Origin: Desulfococcaceae bacterium HSG9
GTDB lineage: Bacteria > Desulfobacterota > Desulfobacteria > Desulfobacterales > JAUCGF01
DNA: 64,000 nt
Assembly (NCBI GenBank): GCA_030378005.1
Contig: JAUCGF010000076.1
Span: 1-64,000 of the forward strand
Direction: 5' to 3'
Each line of letters begins with the position of its first letter. Position 1 is the stretch's first letter. The notes beneath the pieces are model-generated. The model was given only the letters and a program-made list of their open reading frames with translations. It was not told where the DNA came from and searched no databases. Below, piece by piece: positions 5,464 to 13,865 of this stretch. A program made the translations under genes and the position numbers.

Positions 5464-5546
5464 CTAAATCATTTACATATCAAATTCCCTTGCTTTGAAA
5501 TCCTTTTGCCATTACTATGCCCGAAGTTAAATTATTTTTCTATTTC

Positions 5547-6020
5547 GTCCCTACGGGACTTGTCGTATAAGCAATCCTTTTTCTATAGATATTATGTCCC
5601 TAACGGGACAAAATGTAAACTGACAAATGAAGGAAGCCCAATTTAGTTTTATTCGTGTAATTCGTGTGCTTCGTGGTCAAAAATCAGGTTGAACAGTGTC
5701 CCGTTAGGGACATAATATCTATAGAAAGAAATCTTGCTAGTAGGCAAGTCCCGTAGGGACGAAATAGAAAAAGCGTAAGCTGCTTCAAAGCTGATATGAA
5801 GGAAGCCCAATTTAGTTTTATTCGTGTAATTCGTGTGTTTCGCAGTTAAAAATCAGGTTGAATAGTGTCCCGTTAGGAACATAATATCTATAGAAAGAAA
5901 TCTTGCTGGTATGGCAAGTCCCGTAGGGACGAAATAGAAAAGCGTAAGCTGCTTCAAAGCTGATATGAAGGAAGCCCAATTTTTGTTTTTTTCGTGTAAT
6001 TCGTGTGTTTCGTTGTTTAA
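5547..6020. repeat. 169-bp tandem repeats with GTCCC/GGGAC palindromes
   Basis: Two direct copies of a 169-bp unit (5627-5795 and 5796-5964) are followed by a partial third copy (5965 to about 6020). Each full unit carries two short hairpins, GTCCCGTTAGGGAC-like and GTCCCGTAGGGAC, about 40 bases apart, and an ATTCGTGTAATTCGTGTG block. An inverted copy of the palindrome-bearing segment lies at about 5547-5610. The structure resembles REP/BIME-type elements. No protein gene is credible across the array. It lies immediately upstream of the CHAT gene. Confidence 0.85.
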
Positions 6021-6053
6021 AATTCATCACCTTTACTGAAAGCGACAATTAAT

Positions 6054-9000
6054 ATGAAAAAATGCACAATCAAAATCGAACCCGGCAATGACACCCAAGA
6101 CGTAACTGTCAAATACAATGATATGAAATCCCATGCCATATCCGCATCCCGAATGGCGGATGTGATCAAGGCTTCGGAAACGGCTATCGGGCAGAGCAAT
6201 GCCGTGGAAACAGGTCGGGAGCTGTTTTCTGTTTTAGATGGTTCGGGCGGTAGGCTGCGGGCTGAAATGGAAAAAGCCGATGAAACCGGTGAGGTTCTGG
6301 CGCTTTATTTGGATTTGCCCCCGGTTTATGACAGCCTGCCCTTTGAACTGCTTTTTGACAACGGGTTTTTGCTGCAGGATGAAGATTTGTATCTGTTTCG
6401 CCTGGCGGATACGAAAAAGCGGAAATATAAAACTGAATCGCGTGCCTTGGGCATTCTGTTCATGGCCTGTTCGCCTGAAGGGCAGACCGCATTGAATTTT
6501 GAAGATGAAGAGGAACTGATTTTGCGTGAGGCCGAGAAGTTGCAATTGAATCTTGCTGTGGAAGACAGCGGGTCCGCAGACGGTTTGAAGGATATGGTTA
6601 TCGGTGCGGGCGGGTTTGACGTGCTGCATATTTCCGGTCATGCGGGCATTGATGATAAGCTGGGGCCGGTGTTTTACATGGAAAATGAAATCGGTTGGCA
6701 AGACAAGGTGACGCCTGAACGGTTCAACAAATCATTGCAAGGTTTTCAGCCCCGGATTCTGTTTTTATCGGGCTGTTCCACGAGCAAGCGCGATACGGAA
6801 ACGAATGATCCGTCGTTCACCGAAAAAATGGTGTCATTCGGGGTTCCCTTTGTCATGGGCTGGGCCGAGCCGGTTTATGACTCGGCCGCTTCGAAAATGG
6901 CCGCGCAATTGTTCAAATATCTGGCCATGGGCAAAGATATTGCCGAATCCGTACGTCTGGCGCGAGGAGTGGTTCGGGATTTTGTGCATACCTGGGCGCT
7001 TTTTCGGGTGTATTGCAACCGGTCGTTACCGGATGCGCTGATTCCCGCGGGCATGGGCATTCGCACTCAAACCTATCGCAAGACCGTGCATCGCATGTTG
7101 GAACATAGCGAGATTCAGGTTCTGGCCCAGGGGTTTGTGGGGCGGCGGCGTCTGATTCAAAAAGGCGTCAAAGTTTTGCGAGGCTTTGAAGCGCAAAAAG
7201 GACTTTTGATCACGGGCGCGGCCGGTGTGGGCAAATCCTGTCTGGCCGGAAAGCTTATTGAGCGATTCGAGCAAAAAAAGCTCCTTGCATTTCACGGTAA
7301 ACTGGAAACCGGGGCATTGTTTCAAAAATTCATCGATCTGTTTGAGCGTTTTGATATTCAAACCGGACTGGAAGCCATACATTCCGATAAGCCGCCTGAA
7401 GAGCGCCTCATGGGACTGTTTCGGCAGGCGTTGCAGGAATTGCCGGTCATTATTTATCTGGACGATTTTGAACGGAATCTCGAACGCCGGCCGGCCGGGG
7501 CTGATGATGCGGATGACGTGTTTCAAGTGAAAAAGGATGTGCTGCCCCTGGTTCGGGGCTTGCTGCGCGGCGTATCGTGGGCCGAGGGCCAATCCAATCT
7601 GATGATCAGCACCCGGTATCCGTTCAAACTGGAACATGCGGGCCGCGAATCGGTTTCCGAAAATCTGATCCGCATTGCGCTCATGTCCATGCGGGATGCG
7701 GAACTGAAAAAAAAGATCGAAAAGCTCGAATTCATTGCAAATAGCCCTCACCGGAAAATATACGAAACCGCGGGCCGAGGCAATCCCCGGCTGCTGGAAT
7801 GGCTTGATAAAATTGCCGAGGAAGAGGGCAAATACGATCTGGCCGAATTGCATACACGGGTGTCGGGCAAACAGGAGGATTACATTGCCGAATACATGTC
7901 CGACTTGATTGCGAACACAGACGGCGAAGCATTCAATACATTTTTACATCGCTCGGCTGTGTATCGTCAGCCTGTGCCCGCAGATGCGTTTGCGGAATTC
8001 GGAACTGCTGAACTGTTGCGACGGGCTGTGTTGTTGACCTTGATGGAACAGGAAACCCGGCCGAACCGGGATGTGTATTGGGTGCATCCCATGATTCGGG
8101 ACAAGCAACGGGAAAAACTGTCCGCATCCGACCAGACTGCCGCGCATGAAACGGCTGCAAAGTGGTATGAAACCGCAATCGAACAGACGGGCCAGGTGTC
8201 ATATAGTTCGCTGTTCGAAGCGGTTTATCATTCCCTTGCTGCTGGCCGCATCCGGCAGGCGTGCAAACATGCGATTCCTCTGGGGGAAATGATGGAAAAC
8301 ATGCAACTGTACCGGGAACTCGTGGAAATGCAGCAAAATGTGGCGGAATCTGTCACGGCGGCGGTGATTGCTGAAGCACTTGCGGAAAAAGACGGGAATG
8401 TGGCCGAGTTGATGAGCGATCTTGGGGCTGCGTATCATACGATGGGGGATTATCACAGTGTCATCCAATGGACGGAAAAAGCCCTTGCCATTGATTTGAA
8501 AAACTTCAGTGAAAATCATCCGAAGGTAGCGATTCGTTACAACAACATCGGCTTGGCTTATGATGAATTGGGCGAGTACAGTAAAGCCATCAAGTATTAT
8601 GAGCGCGCCCTTGCCATTGATTTGAAAAACTTCGGCGAAAATCATCCGAAGGTGGCGATTCGTTACAACAACTTCGGCTCGGCTTATAATGCATTGGGCG
8701 AATACAATAAAGCCATTGAATATTTTGATCGAGCCCTCGCCATTGATTTGAAAAACTTCGGCGAAAATCATCCGAATGTGGCGATTCGTTACAACAACCT
8801 CGGCTTCGCTTATCAATCATTGGGCGAATACATCAAAGCTGTCGAGTATTATGAGCGCGCCCTTGCCATTGATTTGAAAAATTTCGGCAAAAATCATCCG
8901 GATACGGCGATTGATTGCAACAACCTCGGCTTCGCTTATCAATCATTGGGTGAATACATCAAAGCCATCAAGTATATTGAGCGGGCCCTTGCCATTGATT

Positions 9001-10925
9001 TGAAAAACTTCGGCGAAAATCATCCGGCAGTTGCTAGAGCATATAACAACCTCGGATCGTCCTATAAAGCATTAGGCGAATACAGTAAAGCCATTGATTA
9101 TTTTGATCGAGCACTTTCCATTGATTTGGAAAACCTTGGCGAAAATCATCCGAATGTGGCGACTCGTTACAACAATCTCGGCGAGGCTTATCAAGCATTG
9201 GGCGAATACAGTAAAGCCTTTGAGTATTATGAGCGGGCCCTTGGAATTTATATAAAATTTTTAGGTCATGAACATCCGAATACGAAGACAATAGAGAATA
9301 ACTTGGAAACAGTTAGAAAGGCATATCACAATCAAAATTCGATTTTTGATGGAACACAAAAAAAATTAGCCGATGAAAAAATTGTTGAGAAAAAATTTGA
9401 TCAAGCACCTATACTTCAATTTCTCAAAAAAGCTGGCTTCAAAATCAGTAAATTTTCAAATTCAAACAAAGTTTATGCTTCATCAGATAAAAATCCTTGG
9501 AAGAACTATTTCCATAAGGGAATCTACATTACTGCGTGCATAAACAGGTCACTTGACCGTGATGAAGCGAATATTATTTTTCAAAAAGCTATTGATTATA
9601 CTGACCATGCACTTGTTTTAACAGATCGAAAACCAAAACTAGATGGATGGATGGAAATGGCAAGTATGCGTCTAAATGATAGAAACCCATTTATACTTAT
9701 CCCAATAACGCAAGATATAATTAATGAAGGTATTTCAGAAAAGAAGGAAGCTAAAGTTTTTACTGAACACATTATCAAATTCATTAAGAGGTATAACCCA
9801 TATGATGTGCGTAGCCCTGTATTTGATATTTTTGGTTTTTTTGGTCGAGAAGTAATCATGGATGAAATTCTAAGTGAACTGATGTTAGGAAAAAATATGG
9901 GATTGTTTGGTATTCATAAGATAGGAAAAAGTTCTGTACTAAAGGCATTGCAGAAAAAAGCTGAAATTCCAGTTGCTTATGTTTGCTTAGAAGAAGATAT
10001 ATCTTTGGATGAAATTATTGAAAGAATCATTAGCGGTTGGATAGATGATATTCATGTCAAATTTCCAGATTTTGCATTGAATGGCCAAATTGCAATAGAT
10101 TCAATTTATAAAGAAAATTTTAAACCACATGCAGAAAAGTTATTAAAATACTTGGAAACAGTTGGCCAAATTCCATATTTAAGCATTTTTTTTGATGAAA
10201 TTGATAAAATTGTTCCTTATAAAGAAGACGAAAAAACAATAATTAAACGTTATGTTAGGACAATGGATTTATTACGTGGATTCCAACAAGAAACAAATAG
10301 TATATCTTATCTTTTTGCAGGTGTTAATCCTTCATTTGCGAGAGTTAATTATTTTTGGGGCAATCAAAAAAATCCGATGCATCAGCTCATTATTGAAAAA
10401 TTCTTACCACCATTAAACAATGATGAATGTGAAGTTATGTTAAAAAGTTTAGGAACTCAAATTGGTGTAATTTATAGCGATGAATCAATGGAGTTTATAA
10501 TCAGAAAAAGTGGTTTACATCCTTTTATCGCGCGTAGATTTTGTAGCGTAGTTTATCAAAAATTTAAAGCGACTGGTGAAATACCATTTAAAATTGTTAG
10601 AGAAACTGCTGATGAATTCATTTATCATCCATCTTTAAATGATTACTTTAATGATCATGCTCTGTGGGGTGAGCTTTCAAAAGATGAAATATGGGGGAAA
10701 GGTGTGGGTAATGAAAATCATCGTATCCTCTGTGAACTAGCAGGCTCAAAAGAAGGATTGTCAAAGACCGACCTTTCATGTGGCCAAAATGACAGAATTA
10801 TATTTGAAAAGGCATTTTCAGCTCTTAATGAAAGGAGTATCATTGTTAAGGACTTAACCGAATCTGATCACTATACAATATCGTTTGAATTATTTAAAGA
10901 TTGGATTAATGCACACAAGATTTAA
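6054..10925 (+). CDS. CHAT protease - NTPase - TPR - second ATPase giant fusion protein
   Basis: A 1623-residue multidomain protein. Residues about 90-330 form a CHAT (caspase-like) protease domain with a likely catalytic His196 (HISGHAG) and Cys241 (LSGCST). Residues about 350-640 are a P-loop STAND-like NTPase with Walker A GAAGVGKS (388-395) and Walker B YLDD (468-471). A helical linker follows. Residues about 790-1085 hold seven or more 42-residue kinesin-light-chain-type TPRs. Residues about 1130-1235 form a small alpha/beta domain I cannot name. Residues about 1245-1510 are a second P-loop ATPase with Walker A GIHKIGKSS (1286-1294) and Walker B FFDEID (to 1384), then a winged-helix-like tail. 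CHAT-STAND-TPR proteins act as regulated proteases in bacterial immunity and cell death, so defence is inferred, not shown. DNA after about 9240 becomes distinctly AT-rich, suggesting the C-terminal half was joined later. The next gene starts 29 bases downstream. Confidence 0.85.
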   Translation: MKKCTIKIEPGNDTQDVTVKYNDMKSHAISASRMADVIKASETAIGQSNAVETGRELFSVLDGSGGRLRAEMEKADETGEVLALYLDLPPVYDSLPFELLFDNGFLLQDEDLYLFRLADTKKRKYKTESRALGILFMACSPEGQTALNFEDEEELILREAEKLQLNLAVEDSGSADGLKDMVIGAGGFDVLHISGHAGIDDKLGPVFYMENEIGWQDKVTPERFNKSLQGFQPRILFLSGCSTSKRDTETNDPSFTEKMVSFGVPFVMGWAEPVYDSAASKMAAQLFKYLAMGKDIAESVRLARGVVRDFVHTWALFRVYCNRSLPDALIPAGMGIRTQTYRKTVHRMLEHSEIQVLAQGFVGRRRLIQKGVKVLRGFEAQKGLLITGAAGVGKSCLAGKLIERFEQKKLLAFHGKLETGALFQKFIDLFERFDIQTGLEAIHSDKPPEERLMGLFRQALQELPVIIYLDDFERNLERRPAGADDADDVFQVKKDVLPLVRGLLRGVSWAEGQSNLMISTRYPFKLEHAGRESVSENLIRIALMSMRDAELKKKIEKLEFIANSPHRKIYETAGRGNPRLLEWLDKIAEEEGKYDLAELHTRVSGKQEDYIAEYMSDLIANTDGEAFNTFLHRSAVYRQPVPADAFAEFGTAELLRRAVLLTLMEQETRPNRDVYWVHPMIRDKQREKLSASDQTAAHETAAKWYETAIEQTGQVSYSSLFEAVYHSLAAGRIRQACKHAIPLGEMMENMQLYRELVEMQQNVAESVTAAVIAEALAEKDGNVAELMSDLGAAYHTMGDYHSVIQWTEKALAIDLKNFSENHPKVAIRYNNIGLAYDELGEYSKAIKYYERALAIDLKNFGENHPKVAIRYNNFGSAYNALGEYNKAIEYFDRALAIDLKNFGENHPNVAIRYNNLGFAYQSLGEYIKAVEYYERALAIDLKNFGKNHPDTAIDCNNLGFAYQSLGEYIKAIKYIERALAIDLKNFGENHPAVARAYNNLGSSYKALGEYSKAIDYFDRALSIDLENLGENHPNVATRYNNLGEAYQALGEYSKAFEYYERALGIYIKFLGHEHPNTKTIENNLETVRKAYHNQNSIFDGTQKKLADEKIVEKKFDQAPILQFLKKAGFKISKFSNSNKVYASSDKNPWKNYFHKGIYITACINRSLDRDEANIIFQKAIDYTDHALVLTDRKPKLDGWMEMASMRLNDRNPFILIPITQDIINEGISEKKEAKVFTEHIIKFIKRYNPYDVRSPVFDIFGFFGREVIMDEILSELMLGKNMGLFGIHKIGKSSVLKALQKKAEIPVAYVCLEEDISLDEIIERIISGWIDDIHVKFPDFALNGQIAIDSIYKENFKPHAEKLLKYLETVGQIPYLSIFFDEIDKIVPYKEDEKTIIKRYVRTMDLLRGFQQETNSISYLFAGVNPSFARVNYFWGNQKNPMHQLIIEKFLPPLNNDECEVMLKSLGTQIGVIYSDESMEFIIRKSGLHPFIARRFCSVVYQKFKATGEIPFKIVRETADEFIYHPSLNDYFNDHALWGELSKDEIWGKGVGNENHRILCELAGSKEGLSKTDLSCGQNDRIIFEKAFSALNERSIIVKDLTESDHYTISFELFKDWINAHKI
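8481..9280 (+). repeat. 126-bp coding repeats (TPR array)
   Basis: Within the CHAT gene, a 126-bp unit (42 codons) recurs with exact period, starting at 8481, 8607, 8733, 8859, 8985, 9111 and 9237. Several units are nearly identical at the DNA level, including synonymous positions (the GATTTGAAAAACTTCGGCG block). This points to recent amplification or gene conversion and makes the repeat number likely to vary between strains. Confidence 0.9.
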
Positions 10926-10954
10926 TGAAGCAGTTAAAAAGATAGGAGTTTATT

Positions 10955-13138
10955 ATGTCGATAAATCCATATAATTACGGAGTGCCTGTAACGCATGAAA
11001 AGTTTGTTGGTCGTTGGCAACAACTGAGAAATATTGCTAATACGTTTGATAGTGTAGAAGGTCACTCACATGCTTTAATAGGTGGACGACGATTTGGGAA
11101 AAGTAGTTTTCTTGAAGTATTACGATTTTTATTGATGGAAAGAATAAAACGATCATCTCATCACGATTATAATATTTTTCCTATAGTTATCAATTTAAAA
11201 AGAACTGAAGAAAATAGTCCTGTTGGTATTTTCGGCTTAATTTTAAATACAATTCATCAATATTTTAATTTAAAACGACTGAGGAATGACTTGGGAATAA
11301 CTTTTAAACTACATTTAATAAACACAAAACTTAATAATTTCGTAGAACAAAACCGGAAAACATGTCCTTATCAGGAATTTGAGCATATCATTGATGAATT
11401 TTTGAATGTTTTTGAAGAAAAATACGGAATATCACGTATAGTGATCATGCTGGATGAAGTGGAATATTTACTCAACGAAAATTGGGCAACATCTTTTTTG
11501 GATAAGTTGCGCTCATTAATATATGATTCTTTCCTAAAGAAGCATATACGTATAGTGATTGCCGGGTCTTCCAAAGTACTTGAAGCTCGACAGAAAGGTT
11601 CTCCCTTGTTAAATATGCTAGAATTAACTCACCTTCACTCTTTAAAAAAAGAAGATGTTATCTCGATAGTTAAATGGGCGGGTATTGTTCCGAAGTCTGT
11701 TGCAAACGAAGTCTTTTACCAATGCGGTGGGCACCCTTTCATCGCCCAATATCTTATGTATTACATCTGGCAGGAAATAGAACATGAAAATGTTATGGAT
11801 GTTGTTTCAAAGGTAATATACAAATTCAAACATGAGCGGTACGCTGATATCTATCAATGGAATCGTGAAATAGGCGACTCAGGACAAGATGTTTACAGAT
11901 TGCTCGTCGAGCATGGCAAATGGCTTACGGAAAAAGAAATCCGAAAAACGATACATGACAAAAGAATAAAGGTTGATATCGCCTTAACCACGCTCTGTTA
12001 TCATGGATTAGCAATTCATGATGGTTCATGGAAAAGTTATCGTTATTCAGGGGAACTTTTTAAAAGCTGGTTTATGAATAATTCATTTGCTTCTACTGAA
12101 AGATCAGCAGTAACTCAGAATAAAGACCCTTTGTTAAAGATTATCATCAAAAAGACTATTTTTCCAACAGCTTTCTGTTATTCTTTAACGAAAGATGAAT
12201 ACCCGTTAATCACTTGTAAAATAGATAACTCTTCAGCATCTTGTGGAAATTGCCGTGTAAGTGTCGAAGCTGAAATACAGGGCTACAGTAAAATTGTCAC
12301 AGATACAAAAAAATTTTCAGCAGGAAAAACAGAAAATATAAGATTACTTACCAAAATTACCCATGAATCTTTATTCACTCTAAATGAAATTCGTCCGGCA
12401 TACCTTAGGGTAATCATTAAGAAACATGATAAATCAGGTGTTTATCAACTTGAAGATAAGACATATGAAATTAAACTACATGCTGCCAATACCGCTCTTT
12501 TAGCTATTAAAAATGAAAAAGGCATTATTGAAGATTTAGCTGATTATTTATCTGTTTTTGTAATACCACATACAGAGGAGATCGAAAAAGCAATTAAATT
12601 AGCTGCTGAACGTCACCCTGAATTATGTATTGTCGGTTATCAAGGAGCAATGTTAAATGGCCGTGAGACAGTGCGATCTCAAGCCAACGCAATATTTAAT
12701 ACACTCAAAAAAGATTATCAATTGCTATATACTAATGCGCCAAGAAATTTTGGAAAAGAACCTAAAAAATATACCCAACGCGTTCGCCTTCCGCATGAGA
12801 GTATTATGATGAATCAAAGCCAAGCTAATTGTATCGATGGAACTGTTCTTTTTGCAAGTCTACTCGAAAACATAGGTATTGAACCGCTCATTACAATAGT
12901 GAAGGGTCATGCTTTTGTTGGATGGCGAACATGGAGAGGTGTCAATGAATATGATTTTTTAGAAACAACTATGATTGGTACAGGAACTTTCAAAGAAGCA
13001 CTTGATGTTGGAAATGAACAATATAAAGATGCAATCAACAATAACTATGATAAAAACAAATTATTTGATCCTATCGGTTTTCTTCGTATCGTGGATGTAA
13101 CTAAATGTAGAAAAAATGAGATAACACCTTTGCTGTAA
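10955..13138 (+). CDS. STAND-like ATPase with C-terminal transglutaminase-like domain
   Basis: A 727-residue protein. It starts with NPYNYGVPV...FVGR, the lead-in typical of ORC/STAND-like ATPases and also present before the second ATPase of the upstream gene (NPYDVRSPV...FFGRE). Walker A is GGRRFGKSS (43-51) and Walker B is VIMLDEVE (163-170). A winged-helix-like region follows to about 375, then a beta-rich segment (about 395-510). The C-terminal domain (about 545-727) looks like a transglutaminase/papain-like fold: Cys626 in ANCIDGTVLFASLL, His652 in KGHAFVGW, and Asp667 or Glu670 as candidate third residue. It could be a protease, cross-linker or deamidase. It lies 29 bases after the CHAT gene, is similarly AT-rich and was probably transcribed with it. 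A TAGGAG ribosome binding site precedes the ATG. Involvement in defence is inference. Confidence 0.8.
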   Translation: MSINPYNYGVPVTHEKFVGRWQQLRNIANTFDSVEGHSHALIGGRRFGKSSFLEVLRFLLMERIKRSSHHDYNIFPIVINLKRTEENSPVGIFGLILNTIHQYFNLKRLRNDLGITFKLHLINTKLNNFVEQNRKTCPYQEFEHIIDEFLNVFEEKYGISRIVIMLDEVEYLLNENWATSFLDKLRSLIYDSFLKKHIRIVIAGSSKVLEARQKGSPLLNMLELTHLHSLKKEDVISIVKWAGIVPKSVANEVFYQCGGHPFIAQYLMYYIWQEIEHENVMDVVSKVIYKFKHERYADIYQWNREIGDSGQDVYRLLVEHGKWLTEKEIRKTIHDKRIKVDIALTTLCYHGLAIHDGSWKSYRYSGELFKSWFMNNSFASTERSAVTQNKDPLLKIIIKKTIFPTAFCYSLTKDEYPLITCKIDNSSASCGNCRVSVEAEIQGYSKIVTDTKKFSAGKTENIRLLTKITHESLFTLNEIRPAYLRVIIKKHDKSGVYQLEDKTYEIKLHAANTALLAIKNEKGIIEDLADYLSVFVIPHTEEIEKAIKLAAERHPELCIVGYQGAMLNGRETVRSQANAIFNTLKKDYQLLYTNAPRNFGKEPKKYTQRVRLPHESIMMNQSQANCIDGTVLFASLLENIGIEPLITIVKGHAFVGWRTWRGVNEYDFLETTMIGTGTFKEALDVGNEQYKDAINNNYDKNKLFDPIGFLRIVDVTKCRKNEITPLL

Positions 13139-13202: not shown

Positions 13203-13865
13203 ATGAAAAAATGCACAATCAAAATCGAACCCGGCAATGACACCCAAGACGTAACTGTCAAATACAATGATATGAAATCCCATTCCATATCCGCATCCCG
13301 AATGGCGGATGTGCTCAAGGCTTCGAAAGCGGCTACCGGGCAAGGCAAGGCTGTGGAAACAGGTTGGGAGCTGTTTTCTGTTTTAGATGGTTCGGGCGGG
13401 TGGCTGCGGTCTGAAATGGACAAAGCCGATGAAACCGGTGAGGTGCTGGCGCTTTATTTGGATTTGCCTCCGGTTTATGACGGTCTGCCCTTTGAACTGC
13501 TTTTGACAACGGGTTTTTGCTGCAGGATGAAGATTTGTATCTGTTTCGCCTGGCGGATACGAAAAAGCGGAAATATAAAACTGAATCGCGTGCCTTGCGT
13601 ATTCTGTTCATGGCCTGTTCGCCTGAAGGGCAGACCGCATTGAATTTTGAAGCTGAAGAAGAACTGATTTTGCGAGAGGCCGAGAAGCTGCATTTGAATC
13701 TCGCTGTGGAAGACAGCGGGGCCGCTGATGGTTTGAAAGATATGGTTATCAGAGCGGGCGGGTTTGACGTGCAGCATATTTCCGGTCATGCGGGCATTGA
13801 TGATAAAAAGGGGCCGGTGTTTTACATGGAAAATGAAATCGGCTGGCAAGACAAAGTGACGCCCA
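13203..13865 (+). pseudogene. Truncated, frameshifted copy of the CHAT module
   Basis: From its ATG this segment closely matches 6054-6716, the first 220 or so codons of the CHAT gene, with only scattered substitutions. Similarity begins exactly at the start codon: upstream DNA is unrelated. A one-base loss in a T-run (T5 at 6351-6356, T4 near 13502-13506) shifts the frame at about residue 100. Similarity ends near 13865, after the His motif but before the catalytic Cys position. The copy therefore cannot make an active protease even if the frameshift were a sequencing error. Downstream sequence to 14007 is unrecognised. Confidence 0.85.

Follow-up and report, generated by a model that had tools for sequence, protein, structure and literature searches.

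A two-gene STAND ATPase pair with swappable modules in Desulfococcaceae bacterium HSG9, a probable mobile conflict system

Two adjacent forward-strand genes of Desulfococcaceae bacterium HSG9 (assembly GCA_030378005.1), both within positions 1 to 64,000 of contig JAUCGF010000076.1 (the window, 64,000 nucleotides long), each combine ATPase motifs with a domain of cysteine-protease type, which raises the question of whether they form one system and what such a system might do. We find that related ATPases encoded by adjacent genes recur as a pair across genomes while the modules attached to them change, and we consider it probable that the pair acts as a modular conflict system of the STAND (NLR-like) type, built from two genes and moving horizontally, with anti-phage defence or abortive cell death as its most likely role. 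An initial annotation made from the sequence alone had placed two open reading frames here, 29 bp apart, and had assigned to the first a CHAT protease with both catalytic residues, two P-loop ATPases and a TPR array; both reading frames and all of these domains were located, as follows.

6054 to 10925, forward strand: gene 1, an intact open reading frame of 1623 residues in the order CHAT, nucleoside triphosphatase (NTPase), TPR array, alpha/beta domain, ATPase1.
6213 to 6998, forward strand: CHAT (caspase-fold) protease domain, residues ~54 to 315, with His196 and Cys241; Pfam PF12770, E value 1.2e-14 on the isolated CHAT region; ratio of nonsynonymous to synonymous substitution (Ka/Ks) 0.155 against a paralogue.
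7125 to 7721, forward strand: first NTPase (AAA_22/AAA_16/nSTAND-like), residues ~358 to 556, with a P-loop at residue 388 and Walker B at 465 to 473.
8406 to 9311, forward strand: TPR array of the kinesin-light-chain type, residues ~785 to 1086, comprising seven TPR_12 stretches; Ka/Ks 0.55, the fastest-evolving part.
9288 to 10922, forward strand: core-1, a low-GC segment (alpha/beta domain plus ATPase1) joined on behind the TPR array at a mosaic junction at ~9287, marked by the stop of DNA homology to the paralogue and a shift in GC content at third codon positions (GC3).
9405 to 9740, forward strand: alpha/beta domain, residues ~1118 to 1229, in the order alpha-beta-beta-beta-alpha-beta-alpha-beta in an AlphaFold2 model (local predicted local distance difference test score [pLDDT] ~70 to 90).
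9813 to 10922, forward strand: ATPase1, a STAND/Orc-Cdc6-like AAA+ ATPase with a winged helix by Foldseek, residues ~1254 to 1623; Walker A (the second P-loop of gene 1, residue 1286) and Walker B (DE at ~1380) are intact.
10955 to 13138, forward strand: gene 2, an intact open reading frame of 727 residues, ATPase2 plus a ProA-type C-terminal unit.
10955 to 12106, forward strand: ATPase2, residues 1 to 384, with Walker A at residue 43 and an intact Walker B, LDEVEY, at ~166.
12107 to 13135, forward strand: ProA N-terminal unit, residues ~385 to 727, an Ig-like segment and a transglutaminase-like domain (Cys626, His652, Glu670), assigned from NF058533 and alignments.

The pairing of the two genes was assessed in 80 loci from a genome scan with core-1 alone, to which plasmid, phylum-sample and window loci were added, and the test counted those with a gene 1 of the same subfamily and at least 700 nt of downstream sequence. 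An ATPase2 gene directly followed gene 1, mostly overlapping it, in 29 of the 36 testable loci, a statistic that derives mainly from other phyla, since sampling the window's phylum evenly yielded few relatives. An independent search in the reverse direction covered 245 genomes of the Nostoc-containing order and found ATPase2 in 9 of them; core-1 lay upstream in seven of the eight testable cases, two of which involved loci or genomes that were not new to the analysis. Plasmid searches with the gene 1 extension and, separately, with ATPase2 led to adjacent genes in Nostoc HK-01, and the ATPase2 search also matched Nostoc C057, whose gene 1 starts with NACHT. These frequencies support the view that the two genes are a real unit encoding one two-protein system, as the initial annotation had proposed; co-occurrence is far from rare.

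Two further arrangements bear on the pairing. The nearest core-1 relative, in Desulfobacterales HSG2 (48% identity, with a phosphoesterase-TIR N terminus), is overlapped at its end by an 84-residue remnant of gene 2, which implies that this genome once had the complete pair. In Tildeniella (L116), a full ATPase2 domain is fused ahead of core-1 in one polypeptide (545 bits), suggesting contact between the two ATPases. Outside the window, the pair occurs in cyanobacteria, including the two Nostoc plasmids, and in one actinobacterial metagenome-assembled genome (MAG), and the system is rare, being carried by 2 of 244 evenly drawn cyanobacteria.

Five of the seven unpaired loci belong to one 1293-residue family of Leptolyngbya and close relatives. 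These NACHT-core-1 proteins of Leptolyngbya/Adonisia (L084 to L088) stand without gene 2, and where rows were aligned (L084, L088 and L080) Walker B has LDN in place of LDE; the family may have lost its partner together with ATPase activity. A distant sister branch of mostly single, ~664-residue proteins was paired in 0 of 43 cases (L036, L037, L053, L054 and L093 to L135, with examples on a Klebsiella plasmid [WP_094716518.1] and in Deinococcus, Bacteroidetes and archaea). Its members have the same alpha/beta-ATPase core followed by a C-terminal helical domain with an RxxAH-like motif and no partner gene, and this widespread branch gives the impression of a conflict family of its own, encoded by a single gene.

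The two ATPases are related, as had been suspected from their shared lead-in sequence, since the ATPase1 and ATPase2 family profiles cross-match at about 20 to 47 bits. They are also unequal. ATPase1 keeps Walker A and the acidic Walker-B pair in 29 of 29 proteins; ATPase2 keeps Walker A, and its Walker-B glutamate has been lost in 26 of 29 (mostly to D-G), including most cyanobacterial homologues, the residue being retained in the window, L116 and L130. The AlphaFold2 model of core-1 had a mean pLDDT of 84.7, and its Foldseek matches were the archaeal STAND-like ATPases 2qen and 2fna, Orc/Cdc6, CED-4 and Avs4. The alpha/beta domain that the initial annotation had left unnamed is real, being modelled with fair confidence and conserved in relatives. 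By our own reading of the model, with no database match, its order of elements would be compatible with a restriction-endonuclease-like fold that has no obvious active site. An assignment of core-1 to nSTAND6 was rejected, the isolated core scoring 16.5 bits against a cut-off of 27.7, and for gene 1 PADLOC returned only TPR and weak ATPase matches.

What is joined to this core varies widely. In nearly all family members, other N-terminal modules are joined to core-1 at the same place, some with a second NTPase before it. Relatives of gene 1 begin with HEAT-NTPase, HEAT, NACHT, ATPase_2-like, phosphoesterase-TIR, beta-propeller or caspase-type/CHAT-like modules; none was recognised in Nostoc HK-01, and the window has CHAT-NTPase-TPR. 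Homologues of gene 2 are mostly the ATPase alone, about 400 residues without an appendage, but a C-terminal CHAT domain (E value about 1e-31) is present in L073 and L078, and the actinobacterial MAG (L130) carries an N-terminal EAD1. Based on these comparisons, the constant core is alpha/beta-ATPase1 plus ATPase2, with CHAT-NTPase-TPR as a swappable N-terminal module. The suggestion that two different cysteine-based effectors form one system stands in part: protease-type domains do recur on the pair (CHAT in L073 and L078, a caspase-type sequence on gene 1 in L083), but the CHAT-NTPase-TPR part is exchangeable and recently fused rather than a fixed constituent. The L073 and L078 ATPases, both from Mastigocoleus (L073 10565-13018, L078 11677-14115), belong to pairs in which both partners are complete, have an unambiguous protease, and would be good laboratory models; L070 has a truncated gene 2 copy that shares a linker with them.

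How the window came by its gene 1 can be read from a paralogue in the same genome. This protein, C130 (L031:4823-8128), has 1101 residues with 85% amino-acid identity to gene 1, and stops after the TPRs without an ATPase extension. DNA similarity between the two loci spans 5643-9287 at 88.7% and ends at 9287, exactly where the composition breaks (GC from 0.44-0.52 to 0.31, GC3 from 0.55 to 0.21), and the low GC persists through the end of gene 2. A relative with 49% identity from another genome of the order (L145) is likewise a free-standing protein, of ~1018 residues; it and the paralogue both keep the catalytic-type His196 and Cys241. Two further features flank the genes.

13203 to 13865, forward strand: truncated copy (94%, frameshifted) of the initial 660 bp of gene 1, a relic of CHAT-gene duplication.
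5535 to 6023, forward strand: repeated leader units 5' of gene 1, found also 5' of the C130 paralogue.

Given the paralogue without an extension, the composition break and the truncated CHAT copy, the 1623-residue protein is a mosaic, in which a resident CHAT-NTPase-TPR chassis has recently been fused to a foreign or acquired cassette of core-1 and gene 2. Neither the break nor the truncated copy had been recorded in the initial annotation. The leader units "gtcccgttagggacataatatctatagaaa" ... "gtcccgtagggacgaaatag" precede both CHAT copies (window 5535-6023; L031 3577-4840) and may represent a mobile or recombinogenic repeat responsible for the duplication. Contig positions 1-119 are a 100% identical inverted copy of 13643-13761 in the CHAT fragment, implying that the assembly breaks in this repeat and may conceal further copies of CHAT. 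Comparison of the two chassis copies gave a Ka/Ks that rises from 0.16 in CHAT through 0.30 in the NTPase region to 0.55 in the TPRs; CHAT is thus under purifying selection and the TPR part evolves fastest, a combination of constrained protease and variable repeats that would fit the TPRs acting as a sensor.

The C-terminal part of gene 2 proved to have a known relative. Residues 410-726 matched positions 3-312 of the 1903-position NCBIfam model NF058533, "anti-phage protein ProA" (E value 2.6e-28, 98 bits), a match that the initial annotation had missed. Gene 2 falls short of the full-length ProA equivalog (cut-off 1500 bits, with DUF4011-helicase); in the ProA-type proteins retrieved, the DUF4011 and helicase domains come after an N-terminal unit that aligns end to end with the gene 2 C terminus over ~340 residues. 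The latter is best described as the ProA N-terminal unit. Across 13 divergent members of the unit, Cys626 and His652 are invariant and Glu670 nearly so, giving the Cys-His-Asp/Glu order of transglutaminase-like and papain-like cysteine proteases, and three different transglutaminase-superfamily Pfam models match several members, all below threshold (best E value 0.004). The initial assignment of Cys626 and His652 to a transglutaminase-type domain held for the residues; the papain-like fold that it implied is likely but unproven, PDB profile searches with the appendage having given no credible match. The best indirect evidence that the appendage is an effector comes from the relatives in which a known caspase-fold protease, CHAT, fills the same slot. 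The unit also occurs free-standing, at ~400 residues with an N-terminal membrane or signal segment, on Bacteroidales plasmids and in one genome of the window's phylum (L055 5350-6561, L056 5362-6555, L040 1012-2175). Scans of a viral collection found ProA-type helicases only, with no relative of core-1 or of the gene 2 appendage.

Taken together, these features suggest a division of labour in which gene 1 would be the sensor and transducer, its constant alpha/beta-ATPase1 core carrying an exchangeable recognition module at the N terminus, and gene 2 the partner and executor, with ATPase2 bearing a swappable effector. The TPR module (or HEAT, propeller or NACHT in relatives) would bind a ligand, whereupon the hydrolysis-competent ATPase1 would exchange nucleotide and assemble with ATPase2 into a mixed oligomer. 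Such an oligomer could crowd and switch on the cysteine-protease-type domains (CHAT on gene 1, and the ProA-type unit or, in relatives, CHAT on gene 2), which would then cleave host or phage proteins and halt infection. More tentatively, and with the odds rather against it, the pair could be a bacterial analogue of paired sensor/executor NLRs: obligate, unequal STAND ATPases forming a mixed ring in which each subunit carries a different exchangeable cysteine protease and activation needs both. Were this so, a ProA-type protease would be met for the first time as executor in the window copy. The recurrent two-protein core makes it testable whether bacterial STAND receptors act as unequal pairs, like plant sensor/helper NLRs, and the link between the ProA N-terminal unit and an independent effector position offers a hint of the unit's possible role in ProA.

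Several observations weigh against the conflict-system interpretation and its mechanism. The Walker B of the window's ATPase2 is intact, such that the idea of an inactive partner does not literally apply here. The exact CHAT-core-1 and ATPase2-ProA fusions were seen in this genome only, a 197-contig assembly. The AlphaFold2 model of the gene 2 appendage, built on a shallow alignment, had a mean pLDDT of 35 and was discarded as evidence for a transglutaminase fold (a full-length gene 2 alignment had been dropped, its ProA rows aligning onto the ATPase). No named PADLOC system was matched, nor was either protein named as a defence component, and the proximity to defence genes raised in the initial annotation is unsupported, the neighbours in the window and 13 relatives being mostly housekeeping or metabolic genes. 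In the window, these flanks encode a formyltransferase, a deformylase, an rRNA methylase, an XdhC-like protein and transporters, annotated by reading their sequences.

This housekeeping setting would also suit a switch for regulated proteolysis or for stress/kin recognition in multicellular or filamentous bacteria, using the same mechanics for developmental cell death or signalling. Most copies are indeed in filamentous cyanobacteria, and fast-evolving repeat sensors also suit self/non-self recognition, an idea raised for related systems (PMC10907252). We nevertheless consider such a switch unlikely, given its patchy distribution (the 2 of 244 cyanobacteria and 9 of 245 genomes in the order noted above) and the TIR, CHAT, caspase-type and ProA modules, which, like plasmid carriage and foreign GC, are typical of conflict systems; the plasmids, the GC and the patchiness favour a mobile conflict system. 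Still less probable is that the window pair is a broken or accidental fusion, in which a CHAT-NTPase-TPR gene was copied into a mobile cassette, giving a full-length gene 1 protein that does not function as a unit. The abrupt break at 9287, the truncated CHAT copy, a contig that ends in the same repeat and the failure to find a second genome with this fusion would all be expected of such an accident, yet 1623 codons remain open, the join is seamless at the end of the TPR array, gene 2 is intact and relatives have their modules, at times including the second NTPase, fused at the same place. A narrower alternative, somewhat unlikely in our judgment, is that the gene 2 C-terminal domain is a binding or crosslinking module, a role it may also have in ProA helicases, and CHAT the sole effector: the ProA-type unit heads a helicase that has effector parts of its own, the third catalytic-type position holds Glu670 (in ETT) and no clear Asp, and most gene 2 homologues do without an appendage. 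The invariance of Cys626 and His652, the weak matches to three transglutaminase families and the presence of a real CHAT protease in the same slot in L073 and L078 argue for a protease instead.

Among known systems, the conflict system that we favour shares with type III-E TPR-CHAT (Craspase, PMC9729208) a caspase-like CHAT domain and TPRs, but differs in its CHAT-NTPase-TPR order and fused ATPases; no Cas7-11/gRAMP open reading frame was found among the window neighbours read, and identity with TPR-CHAT was dropped for want of a Cas7-11 neighbour. The MoxR-vWA ternary and EAD systems (Kaur et al. 2020, PMC7159879) are likewise NTPase-centred, modular, equipped with protease effectors and enriched in multicellular bacteria, and L130 carries EAD1, but the pair has no MoxR or vWA component. 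Avs/bNACHT STAND defence proteins, which are single-protein tripartite receptors (PMC10907252), resemble it in combining a STAND-type ATPase switch with repeat sensors, Avs4 being among the Foldseek matches of core-1. Here, in contrast, there are two paired ATPase proteins, and the repeat sensor of the window precedes the core ATPase. With ProA (NF058533), gene 2 shares the ~340-residue unit and its Cys and His motifs; it lacks DUF4011 and a helicase, the unit being joined to ATPase2 instead. A literature search on paired, helper or bacterial NLRs returned mostly plant or fungal systems.

A close likeness is to the nSTAND2 operon of Kaur et al. 2021 (eLife 10:e70394, PMC8195603, Fig. 6C), a predicted mobile two-gene counter-invader system of two STAND proteins, of which the inactive one bears a GT4 or HEPN fusion. 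The pair likewise consists of neighbouring genes that both encode a STAND NTPase core, in a mobile setting and with a variable effector on one partner. In nSTAND2 the effector-bearing partner has eroded NTP-binding motifs; here the Walker-B glutamate is lost in most ATPase2 proteins and intact in the window, L116 and L130, and the effector sits on gene 2 in the window, L073 and L078. The two differ in that nSTAND2 effectors are mostly GT4 or HEPN, neither of which was found in the gene 2 proteins scanned (these carry CHAT, a ProA-type unit or EAD1), and in the large swappable N-terminal modules and conserved alpha/beta domain of gene 1, while the window's ATPase2 has kept its Walker B. No nSTAND2 family was among the Pfam matches. 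At L044 (826-3734, reverse strand, genome G214), a pair of overlapping genes for STAND-type ATPases, the second of which ends in a HEPN_Swt1 domain, resembles the published nSTAND2/HEPN system and is only remotely related to the present pair (27-61 bits), which indicates that the two-ATPase theme is wider. The system, called new in the initial annotation, is thus partly so: it appears to be a variant of the paired-STAND two-gene systems predicted earlier.

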